In this document: piece after piece, positions 40,597-44,638 of the stretch
Position numbering within the stretch: position 1 is the stretch's first letter
How the letters are laid out: each line of letters starts with the position of its first letter
Origin: Parapedobacter pyrenivorans
GTDB lineage: Bacteria > Bacteroidota > Bacteroidia > Sphingobacteriales > Sphingobacteriaceae
Direction of reading: 5' to 3'
Assembly: GCF_014636865.1 (NCBI RefSeq)
Contig: NZ_BMER01000001.1
Location: 2,592,718 to 2,656,717 of the forward strand
Length of the DNA stretch: 64,000 nucleotides
The notes under the pieces: model-generated
Database searches by the model: none
What the model was told of the DNA's origin: nothing
What the model saw: the letters and a program-made list of their open reading frames with translations, nothing else
Made by a program: the position numbers and the translations under genes

Positions 40597-41370
40597 TTAT
40601 CCCTTCAGTTGGCGGATGAATTGCGGTATTTTCCTGCTGTAATCGGTTTCTCCCAGCAATTTTACGAACGCACTACCCACGATGGCACCATCGGCGTGAT
40701 CGGTAGCCCGTGTAAAGGCATGGTGGCCTGAGATGCCAAAGCCGATGGCCACCGGGTTTTTCAATTGCATTGCGCGGATGCGTGAAAAATAGGCTTCGGT
40801 ATTTTCAGACACCGAAAGGTTTTTGCCGGTGGTGGCCGAAGAAGACAAGAGGTAAATAAAACCGGTCGATAGGTCGTCAATTTTCCGGATGCGTTCTTCG
40901 GATGTTTGCGGGGTCACAAGGAAAATGTTGCTCAGCCCATTTTCTTCGAATACGCTCCGGTACCGCTCTTCGTACTCGTACATGGGCAGGTCGGGAACAA
41001 TTACCCCATCCACGCCAACCGCTTTACAGGATTTGCAGAAGCTTTCCACGCCATACTGCAGCACCGGATTGACGTAGCCCATGAGCAGCACCGGGATGTT
41101 GACCCGTCGGCGAAGGTCCTTGAGCTGTTCGAAGAGGACACCGAGCGACATGCCGTTGCGTAAGGCCGCTTCCGAACTATGCTGGATAACCGGCCCGTCC
41201 GCCACCGGATCAGAGTAGGGGAATCCGATTTCAAGGAAATCCACTCCTGCGTTTTCTAACGTTTCGGCGATATCCACTGTGCTTTCCAATGTCGGATATC
41301 CGGCTGTATAATAAATAGAGAGTATGCGTTTGCTGCCTTTGTCGGCAAATAAGCGATTGATCCTGTTCAT
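40597..41370 (-). CDS. trpA: Tryptophan synthase alpha chain
   Basis: TrpA cleaves indole-3-glycerol phosphate to indole, which passes to TrpB. The 257-residue TIM barrel has the catalytic Glu in FLEIGFPYSDPVADGPVIQ and the second acid in the DGVIVPDLP loop. Length is typical. It is the last gene of trpDFBA and starts two bases after the trpB stop. Confidence 0.97.
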   Translation of the reverse strand: MNRINRLFADKGSKRILSIYYTAGYPTLESTVDIAETLENAGVDFLEIGFPYSDPVADGPVIQHSSEAALRNGMSLGVLFEQLKDLRRRVNIPVLLMGYVNPVLQYGVESFCKSCKAVGVDGVIVPDLPMYEYEERYRSVFEENGLSNIFLVTPQTSEERIRKIDDLSTGFIYLLSSSATTGKNLSVSENTEAYFSRIRAMQLKNPVAIGFGISGHHAFTRATDHADGAIVGSAFVKLLGETDYSRKIPQFIRQLKG

Positions 41371-41372
41371 GG

Positions 41373-42557
41373 TTAAAACCCAAAATACTTCATGTAATTA
41401 TCCAAATCCTTGTCGCCGCGCCCGGAAAGACAAACGACCACATTTTCGTCACCCTTGAAAGTCATTTTCTCCAGTTGAGCCAGCGCATGAGCGCTTTCAA
41501 TTGCGGGGATGATGCCTTCCAGCCGGGTGAGTAGTAAACCCGCTTGCATGGCTTCATCATCCGTAATATTAACGTAGGTAGCACGCCCCTTTTCATATAG
41601 CCAGGCATGCTGCGGCCCGACACCCGGATAATCCAATCCGGCGGAAATGGAATAGGGCTCGATAACCTGTCCGTCATCGGTCTGCATCAATAACGAACGG
41701 CTACCGTGCAACACGCCCTCGCGCCCAAGGACGGTTGTCGCCGCCGATTCACCGGAATCCACCCCTTTGCCGGCGGCTTCTACAGCCACCAGTTTCACGT
41801 CATGATCGTCTAGGAAGTGATAGAACATGCCGGCGGCATTGCTACCACCGCCTACGCAAGCTATCACATGGTCGGGCGTTTCGCGGCCGGTTTTTTCCAG
41901 CAATTGTTTTCGCGTTTCGGCCGAGATGACCGACTGGAAACGGGCCACCATATCCGGATAGGGGTGTGGACCAACGACCGATCCGATGATATAATGCGTA
42001 TCTACGGGATTATTTATCCAGTCGCGCAGTGCTTCGTTGGTTGCATCTTTCAACGTTTTACTGCCCGACTCGGCGGCGATTACCTCGGCACCCATCATTT
42101 TCATCCGCGCTACGTTGGGTGCTTGCCTCTCGATATCAATAGCGCCCATATAGACCACGCATTTTAGGCCTTTGAGTGCGCACACCGTGGCGGTAGCCAC
42201 GCCGTGTTGCCCGGCGCCTGTCTCGGCAATGATGCGTTTCTTGCCAAGCCGCTCCGCGAGTAAGATCTGGCCAATGGTATTATTGATTTTATGCGCACCG
42301 GTGTGGTTGAGGTCTTCCCGCTTGAGGAAGATATTAGTGCCGTAACGTTCCGAAAGTCGTTGCGCGGGGTAAAGGGGAGAGGGCCGGCCTACGTAGTCCC
42401 TCAGCAACTTGTCAAATTCTTGCCTGAAATCATCACTGTGGATGATCGCTAAGTATTGCTGCCGCAGTTCCTCCACATTGGGGTACAGCATTTCGGGGAT
42501 GTAGGCTCCGCCAAAATGGCCATAGTAGCCTTTCTCGTTTACTTGATATTCACTCAT
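41373..42557 (-). CDS. trpB: Tryptophan synthase beta chain
   Basis: TrpB joins indole and serine with PLP to make tryptophan. The 394-residue product has the PLP-binding Lys90 in [22 protein letters not shown], and the phosphate-binding [10 protein letters not shown] segment. Length and the start ([17 protein letters not shown]) are typical of the TrpB1 class that works with TrpA. It overlaps the trpF stop by eight bases. Confidence 0.98.
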
Positions 42558-43176
42558 CGTTGATGGTTTGTAACGTTCGTTTTAATAATGCAATGTCCTT
42601 GATGCCTGGTTCCGTCTCGAATCTTGAGTTCAGATCAACGGCGTAGAGGCGGCTGTCACCCAGCAGTAGGGCGTCTGCTATGTTTTCAGCGCCTATTCCA
42701 CCACTCAGGAAAAACGGTTTATCGGATGGGTAGCCGTCGAGTAGTTTCCAATCAAACCGTATACCTGTGCCACCATGATGTGCGCTTTGGGTATCAAATA
42801 GATAATAGTCAGTTACCCCCTCGTAGTCCGCCAATTTAGCCCAATCAAAATGCGCGTTGATGCCGAAGGCTTTGACGATTTCAACGTGATTTTCCTTTAA
42901 GTCGGCGCAATACGCCGGACTTTCATTTCCATGCAATTGTATTGCTTGGAAAGCATATTGGCTGGCCGTCGCCTTCACATGGTCAATATCAGCATTGACA
43001 AAAACCCCTGTTTTCTTGACCCCTTTCAATCGGGCAACCCACGCTGCCTCGAGTTGTCCCACGAAACGTTTAGAACCGGGGTAGAAAATGAAACCGATGT
43101 AATCCGGCTGCAAGCTAAGCACTTCCCGGATGTTCTCGGGGTGCTTAAGGCCACATATTTTTATTTTCGGTTTCAT
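42550..43176 (-). CDS. trpF: Phosphoribosylanthranilate isomerase
   Basis: TrpF converts phosphoribosylanthranilate to the ribulose form in tryptophan synthesis. The 208-residue TIM barrel has [11 protein letters not shown] with the catalytic Cys, the [14 protein letters not shown] segment, [20 protein letters not shown] with the catalytic Asp, and [10 protein letters not shown] for phosphate binding. It overlaps trpD by four bases (ATGA) and trpB by eight. trpC, which normally lies between trpD and trpF, is absent. Confidence 0.96.
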
Positions 43177-44159
43177 TTCACCAATTTCCTGAAACTTTCG
43201 AGCGCTTTCTTTCCCAGTAATGAGGCTTCCGCTTCATAGTAACAATCCCCGAAACTCTTCTCCGGATGGATAGTCTGGATGGCGATGGATGCGTTGGCGA
43301 GCACTACCGCATTTTGTTCGGCGTTGCCGTCGCCATGAAGCACGGTCGTAAAGATCTTGGCGGCTTCTTCGACGGTTTCTCCGCCGTGGATACAGTCAGC
43401 AGATATCGGGGTGAAGCCGAGGTGCTCGATCGCATAGATATGCTCTCCCTTATTGCTGATTGTTTTGAAGTCTCCTGTGAGGGAAACTTCGTCGTATCCA
43501 TCCAACGCATGGAGGATCGTGTATTGTTTATCGGTTTGCTGATAAAGGTAGCCATATAAACGGGCTAGTTCCAAACTAAACACGCCTACGGACTGGTAAT
43601 GTGGGTTTGTAGGATTAACCAAGGGGCCGATCATGTTGAAGAACGTTTTCACGCCCAGTTCGCGACGGATAGGGGCCACGGTCTTCATGGCCGGATGGAA
43701 AAGCGGCGCATGGAGAAAGCAGATACAGGCGCTTTCCAATTGCTGGCTGATAATCGCTTTGTCATTGGTGAATTGATAGCCAAGGTACTCCATCACGTTG
43801 GACGATCCGCACCCGGATGACACACCATAGTTACCATGTTTAGCCACGGGATAACCGGCACCGGCTACCACGAAGGAAGCTAGCGTAGAGATGTTGAAGG
43901 TGTTTTTGCCGTCGCCCCCCGTACCACAGAGGTCGATGAGCTTATAGCCGGGAAAATCCAACTGCAGGCATAAATCATACATGGCATCGCGGAATCCCTC
44001 CAATTCTTCCACACGGATGCTTCGCATCCCATAAGCAGTCATGAATGCCGCTATTTGGGAATTGTTATACTTTCCGGATGCGATATTGGTCAATATTTCA
44101 TACGCCTCACGACGGGTGAAGGTCTTGAATTCGAAAAGATGCGCTAAGATCTGTTTCAT
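43173..44159 (-). CDS. trpD: Anthranilate phosphoribosyltransferase
   Basis: TrpD transfers phosphoribose from PRPP to anthranilate. The 328-residue product has the PRPP-binding DLCGTGGDGKNTFNIST, GNYGVSSGCGSSNVMEYLG and the C-terminal glycine-rich region of the family. It is the first structural gene of this trp operon and is preceded by a 150-base leader with an attenuator. It lacks an adjacent trpE, trpG and trpC, which must lie elsewhere. Confidence 0.96.
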   Translation of the reverse strand: MKQILAHLFEFKTFTRREAYEILTNIASGKYNNSQIAAFMTAYGMRSIRVEELEGFRDAMYDLCLQLDFPGYKLIDLCGTGGDGKNTFNISTLASFVVAGAGYPVAKHGNYGVSSGCGSSNVMEYLGYQFTNDKAIISQQLESACICFLHAPLFHPAMKTVAPIRRELGVKTFFNMIGPLVNPTNPHYQSVGVFSLELARLYGYLYQQTDKQYTILHALDGYDEVSLTGDFKTISNKGEHIYAIEHLGFTPISADCIHGGETVEEAAKIFTTVLHGDGNAEQNAVVLANASIAIQTIHPEKSFGDCYYEAEASLLGKKALESFRKLVK

Positions 44160-44176
44160 CGTTGTTTCATATCCAT

Positions 44177-44204
44177 AAAAAAAGCTTGCCGATGATGGGC
44201 AAGC
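44177..44204 (-). terminator. trp attenuator terminator
   Basis: Seven-base stem GCTTGCC/GGCAAGC with a seven-base loop and a run of seven T on the minus strand, ending 18 bases before the trpD ATG. It lies within the trp leader, so it is regulatory rather than a normal end-of-operon signal. Confidence 0.88.
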
Positions 44205-44253
44205 CGCTATACGTTTCAGTAACTATTACTTACAATAGGAGGTTGCCACAGCC

Positions 44254-44301
44254 TTAATTGCTATGCCACCACCAAGTAATATGTCCTGTTTGAAAATCCA
44301 T
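44254..44301 (-). CDS. trpL: trp leader peptide
   Basis: A 15-codon open frame MDFQTGHITWWWHSN ending in TAA. Codons 10-12 are three consecutive TGG (44274-44266), far above chance in such a short frame. The stop falls just before the proposed antiterminator arm. The ATG lies about ten bases downstream of the predicted transcription start. It is too short to be expected among ordinary gene calls and is the sensor part of the attenuator. Confidence 0.88.
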   Translation of the reverse strand: MDFQTGHITWWWHSN

Positions 44302-44314
44302 TATTGTTGTGAGG

Positions 44315-44345
44315 CAAATATGGGCTTTTGTTTTGAAAGATGCAA
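44315..44345 (-). promoter_or_regulatory. trp operon promoter
   Basis: On the minus strand TTG (44345-44343) and CATATTTG (44322-44315) are separated by 20 bases. The -7 box matches TAnnTTTG at seven of eight positions. It lies just after the DUF2795 terminator and starts the trp leader. Confidence 0.65.
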
Positions 44346-44416: not shown

Positions 44417-44638
44417 TCAGTATTCATCTTCATTGAAGAAGAAATCATCCTTGGTCGGATAATCGGGCCAGATCTCCTCTATATTTTCATAGGGTTCACC
44501 ATCGTCTTCCAGGGCCTGCAAGTTCTCAATCACTTCCACAGGGGCCCCTGAGCGGATGGCGTAGTCAATCAGCTCGTCTTTCGTGGCCGGCCAAGGTGCA
44601 TCTTCCAAATGTGAGGCTAACTCTAATGTCCAATACAT
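44417..44638 (-). CDS. DUF2795 family small acidic protein
   Basis: A 73-residue acidic protein (MYWTLELASHLEDAPWPATKDELIDYAIRSGAPVEVIENLQALEDD...). The LASHLEDAPWPATKDELIDYAIRSGAP pattern is that of DUF2795, a helical domain of unknown function; Bacteroidota members carry the extra C-terminal EIWPDYPTKDDF tail seen here. Promoter-like TATTTTTG lies at 44669-44676 on the minus strand and a terminator follows, so it is a single-gene unit. Confidence 0.88.
   Translation of the reverse strand: MYWTLELASHLEDAPWPATKDELIDYAIRSGAPVEVIENLQALEDDGEPYENIEEIWPDYPTKDDFFFNEDEY

Follow-up and report, generated by a model that had tools for sequence, protein, structure and literature searches.

A predicted ribosome-mediated tryptophan attenuator before trpD in Parapedobacter pyrenivorans and its counterparts in other Sphingobacteriaceae

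The stretch of DNA analyzed here (64,000 nucleotides, hereafter the window) belongs to the assembly of Parapedobacter pyrenivorans (5.9 Mb, 11 contigs), for which protein comparison placed the nearest named TrpD relatives in Parapedobacter species (82–89% identity). Four tryptophan genes follow each other on its minus strand, namely trpD, which would be the first regulated gene (43173..44159; TIGR01245 above cut-off, E 1.8e-84), trpF (42550..43176; best match NF002295, phosphoribosylanthranilate isomerase, E 2e-47, below the curated cut-off), trpB (41373..42557; TIGR00263 above cut-off), and trpA (40597..41370; TIGR00262 above cut-off). The pathway is split, as trpE-trpG-trpC are clustered elsewhere in the genome, on contig 5, where trpE was assigned by PF04715 and trpG and trpC by eye; a second, weaker PF04715 match was located on contig 3. 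No match to TrpR was obtained in this genome at E 0.001, and the E. coli and B. subtilis controls gave matches. Immediately upstream of the attenuator region, the minus strand carries a gene for a small acidic protein (MYWTLELASHLEDAPWPATKDELIDYA..., 73 codons, 44417-44638), behind which a GC-rich hairpin and a T run are found.

The original prediction had named a Bacteroidota promoter, a 15-codon leader with three TGG codons, a GGCAA/TTGCC pairing and a terminator in front of trpD, and all of these are present on the minus strand, some of them with amendments. The predicted promoter (44315..44345) comprises a TTG at 44345-44343 and a -7 box, CATATTTG, at 44322-44315, so that the promoter call stands, with one mismatch of the box to TAnnTTTG. 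Since the G of the -7 box was taken as position -5, the spacing given for F. johnsoniae in PMC6847099, the predicted start is A44310, 9 bases 5′ of the leader ATG and in agreement with the distance of about ten bases proposed earlier. The leader peptide ORF, MDFQTGHITWWWHSN (44254..44301, delimited from the sequence and from relatives), has 15 codons and a TAA stop lying 94 bases upstream of trpD, and it contains the three Trp codons TGGTGGTGG (44266..44274), a run that is kept in relatives and is the presumed stall site. Among the 1001 ATG-started ORFs of 8–35 aa in the window (both strands, nested starts counted), WWW occurs in this leader only. A promoter-ATG-TGGTGG pattern searched over the whole genome proved much too permissive (396 matches vs 197 in the backwards control) and was not used.

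Behind the Trp codons, the RNA can be drawn in four segments. Segment 1 (44265-44260) pairs with 44252-44247 to form hairpin 1:2 over the stop codon (44247..44265, minus strand; pairing and covariation in 78 distinct sequences), a conserved element that had escaped the original prediction, which spoke of a full set of parts; the parts that it listed are there. Antiterminator segment 2, GGCAA (44243..44247, minus strand), has TTGCC (44202-44198) as its partner in the fold and in the alignments, and its outer portion, TCCTAT (44235..44240), pairs with ATAGCGG (44210-44204) in the fold and in 83.6% of the cells of 48 aligned sequences. Segment 3, GGCTTGCC (44198..44205), is, according to the alignments, the alternative partner of segment 2 and at the same time the 5′ arm of the intrinsic terminator (GGCUUGCC/GGCAAGCU, 44177..44205, minus strand; sequence and covariation). 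The terminator arms occupy 44205-44198 and 44190-44183, and U7 (44183-44177) ends 17 bases before the trpD ATG; the stem and the seven U are as described earlier, the stem having 8 pairs including a terminal G-U, not 7.

Taken singly, the fold of the whole trpD leader provided moderate evidence (z -2.46, 4 of 200 shuffles equally good), and its antiterminator part reached z -1.67 (16/200 equally good). The energies of the antiterminator and of the terminator hairpin were -12.0 and -11.9 kcal/mol, respectively, and the antiterminator fold of the window was not stabler than dinucleotide shuffles (z +0.19). Terminator-like sites were not enriched in 5 kb either (7 vs 6.2 in shuffles), and sites of this kind, taken alone, would fit a chance arrangement in which the terminator of the upstream gene happens to stand beside an unrelated small ORF. 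Because the single-sequence folds were only moderate and the terminator-like sites unenriched, the case rests on the comparison of relatives.

The near-relative sample consisted of the best 80 of 140 confirmed TrpD-relative loci (Parapedobacter, Sphingobacterium, Mucilaginibacter, Olivibacter, Nubsella, and others), and all 80 had a Trp-run leader ORF before trpD (WWW in 73, WW in 7) that started 125–230 bases upstream of the gene. For the second sample, 41 genomes were used, 31 of them with a TrpD match at E 0.001, from which 30 loci were taken (23 same-family); here a Trp-run leader preceded trpD in 20 of the 23 same-family loci, so the Trp codon run named in the original prediction is kept in relatives. 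The three same-family exceptions were L010, L020, and L023. L010 was read as an assembly break, since its contig begins 183 bases ahead of trpD and a leader was located close to one end of a different contig from this genome; L023 had no leader. At L020 (genome G010), which is perhaps a lost attenuator, a terminator (GGTTGCC..GCAACC plus a T run) is kept without a Trp-run leader before trpD. No leader was counted before trpD in the 7 other-family loci of the second sample. For L022 the upstream sequence was limited to 206 bases, and the region preceding trpD in L024, L025, L029, and L030 looks like the closing part of the gene ahead of it.

The samples together gave 110 trpD loci, of which 7 were without a Trp-run ORF according to the script (L010, L020, L022, L023, L025, L027, L028) and 3 were dropped as chance matches overlapping the end of the upstream gene (L024, L029, L030). 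The 100 leaders kept (some species twice) carried WWW in 88 cases, WW in 11, and WRW in 1, and the removal of 17 duplicates left 83 sequences that differed from one another between the Trp run and the terminator end (5 of them with GTG or TTG taken as the start codon). In this set, the leader had 15 codons in 65 sequences, the last Trp codon started 12 nt before the stop in 70, and a stem-loop with a T run was found by script in all 83, a count without a shuffled control. Boxes of the TANNTTTG type, with no more than one mismatch in the TA and no further than 34 nt upstream of the leader start, were present in 82/83 vs 161/1660 shuffled sequences, with a TTG upstream of the box in 81 of the 83 (this last count without a control). 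Outside the Trp run, the leader peptide drifts among relatives, N-terminus included, and this argues against a TnaC-like nascent-peptide arrest, sensing free tryptophan and induced by high Trp, as an arrest peptide is expected to keep its sequence; such an arrest would explain why Trp genes are preceded by a short leader ORF with Trp codons, but the genes downstream are biosynthetic, and we consider it very improbable.

Pairing was scored on an alignment of 48 sequences, representing the less divergent part of the 83 distinct leaders, and on a larger one obtained with a covariance model of hairpins 1:2 and 3:4 only (R1), which aligned 79 matches (78 distinct) from 80 sources. Hairpin 1:2 was paired in 95.8% of cells in the 48 sequences, with a covariation score reached by 0/500 shuffles, and in 95.0% of cells in the 78 sequences, where both-side changes occurred in 84 cells vs 27.1 in shuffles and the covariation score was 0.430 vs 0.176 shuffled (0/500 reaching it; slid controls ≤ 0.155). 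The terminator was paired in 99.7% of cells in the smaller set, with little variation, and in 98.9% in the larger one, with both-side changes in 6 of 8 pairs (38 cells vs 9.6 shuffled) and a covariation score of 0.325 vs 0.187 (0/500 shuffles reaching it; slid controls ≤ 0.113). The variation of the terminator stem in relatives is therefore compensated, a point on which the original prediction had staked its reading.

The antiterminator core GGCAA/TTGCC, scored on the alignment fitted to 1:2 and 3:4 only, was paired in 96.6% of cells of the 78 sequences vs at most 49.3% in slid controls. Its covariation was weak, with 2 both-side-change cells, below three of the six slid controls (6, 4, and 6), and a score reached by 3/500 shuffles; in the 48 sequences 90.7% of its cells were paired with covariation no higher than in shuffles, and the outer pairing of segment 2 with ATAGCGG likewise showed no covariation beyond shuffles. 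Segments 2 and 3 are near-invariant, which is expected where each has two mutually exclusive partners and which we count as constraint, not as covariation. In single leaders, complementarity to the terminator 5′ arm was weak (p 0.05 in 14 of 83). In folds of the RNA as far as the terminator 5′ arm, with a ribosome positioned at the last Trp codon, 6 or more arm bases paired upstream in 81/83 leaders, compared with 707/1660 when the upstream part was shuffled. A chance neighborhood of terminator and small ORF is hardly credible in view of the Trp run in 100 loci, the constant spacing, the promoter box in nearly every distinct leader, and the covariation, and the upstream gene is followed by its own GC-rich hairpin and T run.

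The trpD leader thus combines the features of a trp attenuator, i.e., an ORF with Trp codons, a terminator, a 1:2 hairpin, and an antiterminator (the last with weak or absent covariation). The sequences support the presence of these parts in this order, the conservation of each, and covariation in both 1:2 and 3:4. As judged from this comparison, which bears out the earlier reading, it is very probably a ribosome-mediated transcription attenuator that responds to charged tRNA-Trp. In the proposed mechanism, whose start site, leader translation, ribosome stalling, and termination step are inferred, RNA polymerase would start ~ 9 bases before the 15-codon leader ORF. Under a shortage of charged tRNA-Trp, the ribosome would stall on the three UGG codons and cover the 5′ arm of the stop-codon hairpin (segment 1), segment 2 (GGCAA with the CCTAT behind it) would be freed to pair with segment 3 (UUGCC with AUAGCGG), the terminator could not form, and trpD-F-B-A would be transcribed. 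With ample Trp, the ribosome would reach the stop codon and mask segment 2, and the 3:4 hairpin with U7 would terminate transcription before trpD; the same outcome would be expected of an untranslated leader, where hairpin 1:2 would hold segment 2.

The trpL attenuator of E. coli (Rfam RF00513) has four segments, with stalling on Trp codons, a 2:3 antiterminator, a 3:4 terminator, and a 1:2 hairpin, and the trpD leader shares this four-segment logic. It differs from trpL in having three Trp codons instead of two, other sequences, no TrpR among the matches obtained in its genome, trpD as the first gene, and a predicted 5′ end only 9 bases before the leader ATG.

The leader peptide could instead control the translation of trpD, by re-initiation or by masking of its start, and not transcription. 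Leader ORFs near genes have been proposed to supply ribosomes by re-initiation (PMC4833913), and the T run of the terminator is only 17 bases away from the trpD ATG. The same source, however, gives a peak of 11–14 bases for Bacteroidetes, far from the 94 bases between the leader stop and trpD, and a stem that covaries and has seven T behind it speaks for transcription; we therefore regard translational control as very unlikely.

Transcription attenuation seems to recur before the other half of the pathway. Upstream of trpE on contig 5, the same genome contains a second Trp attenuator of unlike sequence (L113:2908-3056, plus strand), whose leader, MAIKRFHIGLWWWLDSDNVGSVGTSIYS (L113:2908-2994, plus strand), stands behind a TACTTTTG box, 6 bases separating the -7 box from the ATG. 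CCCGACG...CGTCGGG and a T run follow this leader, and CGTCGGG is found once more upstream, inside the leader, as an alternative partner; the single fold had z -1.67, with 13/200 shuffles equally good. In a sample of 41 genomes, 30 had a TrpE match at E 1e-100, and 25 of the 30 loci obtained had a Trp-run leader before trpE (absent in L172, L176, L179, L186, and L187). Among the 9 trpE loci of the genus to which the window belongs, the 5′ arm of the terminator was fully paired upstream in the fold in 8 and was one base short in 1, as counted without a shuffled control. Because this second attenuator has the same logic and precedes trpE-trpG-trpC, both halves of the pathway would answer to one signal.

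Another small ORF, rich in His (MQIAFIHPFIHLHHRHCGDV) and lying behind a TATATTTG box, was noticed in the same genome at L197, 223 bases before hisG. It is possibly a histidine leader peptide, and inspection by eye found no clear terminator at L197 upstream of hisG.

The distance from the -7 box to the leader start was 5–32 bases (median 16) in the trpD leaders and, where a box was found before trpE (22 of 25 leaders), 5–8 bases in 19 of the 22. If the F. johnsoniae spacing applies, these 19 trpE leaders have predicted 5′ ends of 1–4 bases, that is, they would be nearly leaderless RNAs. It has been reported that 5.5% of the mapped mRNAs are leaderless in F. psychrophilum (PMC9723704) and ~ 3.7% of the 5′ UTRs are < 10 nt in B. 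thetaiotaomicron (PMC7366714). Should the leader truly function on an RNA that begins only a few bases upstream of the start codon, a close coupling of transcription and translation would be required in these bacteria.

Attenuators of this kind are already known, having been predicted in Bacteroidota since 2010. Rfam holds a predicted family, RF01692 (Bacteroid-trp, "Bacteroidete tryptophan peptide leader RNA"), taken from Weinberg et al. 2010 (PMC2864571), and PMC6414381 places a Bacteroid-Trp RNA before the trp operon of F. psychrophilum. For the same species, PMC9723704 reports strong indications, drawn from structure and from mapped start sites, that amino-acid operons are attenuated through leader peptides; these attenuators share with the trpD leader the phylum and the use of leader peptides and belong to another family. 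Together with RF01692, this report settles the doubt of the original prediction about precedents in the phylum. A literature search, which left subscription papers mostly outside its reach, returned no trp attenuator in Sphingobacteriaceae and no paired trpE/trpD attenuators. Vitreschak 2004, Lopatovskaya 2010, and Merino, Jensen and Yanofsky 2008 may cover Bacteroidetes.

The window had 0 Rfam matches at the gathering score (T-box and RF01692 included), and its leader stretch searched at E 1 returned two sRNA matches only, both far below their gathering scores, and no RF01692. Over the whole genome, RF01692 gave no match at E 10 (150 of 310 candidates scored), and its gathering score of 49 bits was not reached. 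Among 295 genomes of the class, it matched 14 at E 0.001 (strict filters), 10 of them above cut-off, and 1 of 10 Sphingobacteriaceae genomes was matched, below cut-off; that locus is the trpD leader L127 (46.5 bits), whose nearest named loci are from Mucilaginibacter. R1, in turn, scored 48–53 bits on three of 7 RF01692 loci of other families (L116, L118, L120) and 25–40 on the other 4. It matched 53/395 class genomes at E 0.01, including 15/15 Sphingobacteriaceae, and 120/151 genomes of the family; as the counts contain false matches at their weak end, we also quote 89/151 at ≥ 47 bits. Of 8 second matches to R1 in the 151 family genomes, the four examined, which were weaker ones (L199, L202, L203, and L204; 37.6–45.8 bits) were all ordinary gene-end terminators. 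The window element resembles RF01692 in its Trp-run leader ORF, the hairpin over the leader end, the terminator before a trp gene, and the phylum, and it differs in that RF01692 loci elsewhere precede genes read as trpE or trpB. It is thus of the same kind as Bacteroid-trp, and its score places it outside the present model of the Rfam family.

In the few sequences compared, RF01692-type loci elsewhere appear to be further set apart by their antiterminator. In these other families, whose members we take, from gene order, to be mostly Flavobacteriaceae and Bacteroidales, a stretch over the leader stop (e.g., GUCGUGA, with UGA as the stop) is complementary to the loop and 3′ arm of the terminator (UCACGAC); the loci precede trpE (L116, L118-L120, L122, L123, L153, and others) or trpB (L115, L117, L124). 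From 24 other-family loci, 19 remained after duplicates and misses, with L135 and L139 (neither geometry, p 0.225–0.605) and L155 and L157 (no leader found there) outside the set. Complementarity to the loop and 3′ arm at p 0.05 vs shuffles was found in 12/19 of them and in 2/83 Sphingobacteriaceae, and complementarity to the 5′ arm in 0/19 and 14/83, respectively; with a shorter stretch the other-family counts were 14/21 and 0/21 (L135 and L139, with neither geometry, being among the 21). In an alignment of 17 of the 19 (without L125 and L156), the loop and 3′-arm pairing held in 89.9% of cells vs at most 56.0% in slid controls, and its covariation score was reached by 1/500 shuffles. Changes from G-C to A-U at the second base of the stop codon were present in 3 of the 17 sequences, and 2 pairs had both-side changes, a number reached by 157/500 shuffles.

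To the known kind, the sequences analyzed here would add a family-wide branch in Sphingobacteriaceae that lies outside the RF01692 model, two attenuators per genome, and very short predicted 5′ ends. We tentatively propose, giving it slightly less than even weight, that Bacteroidota use two geometries, a classic 2:3 pairing in Sphingobacteriaceae and a 2:4 pairing via the stop-codon segment in other families (probably Flavobacteriaceae and Bacteroidales), and that the trpE leader RNA of Sphingobacteriaceae is leaderless, with attenuation by start-codon-first initiation. If true, attenuation would operate on leaderless RNA, a rare form of mRNA in this phylum, and a close coupling of transcription and translation would be implied there. 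R1 offers a covariance model for elements missed by the Rfam Bacteroid-trp family, and the trpD attenuator provides a testable case, family-wide, of ribosome-dependent transcription control in a phylum with unusual translation-start rules. For the organism itself, these observations suggest that two separate attenuators could keep a split trp pathway coordinated with no TrpR repressor.
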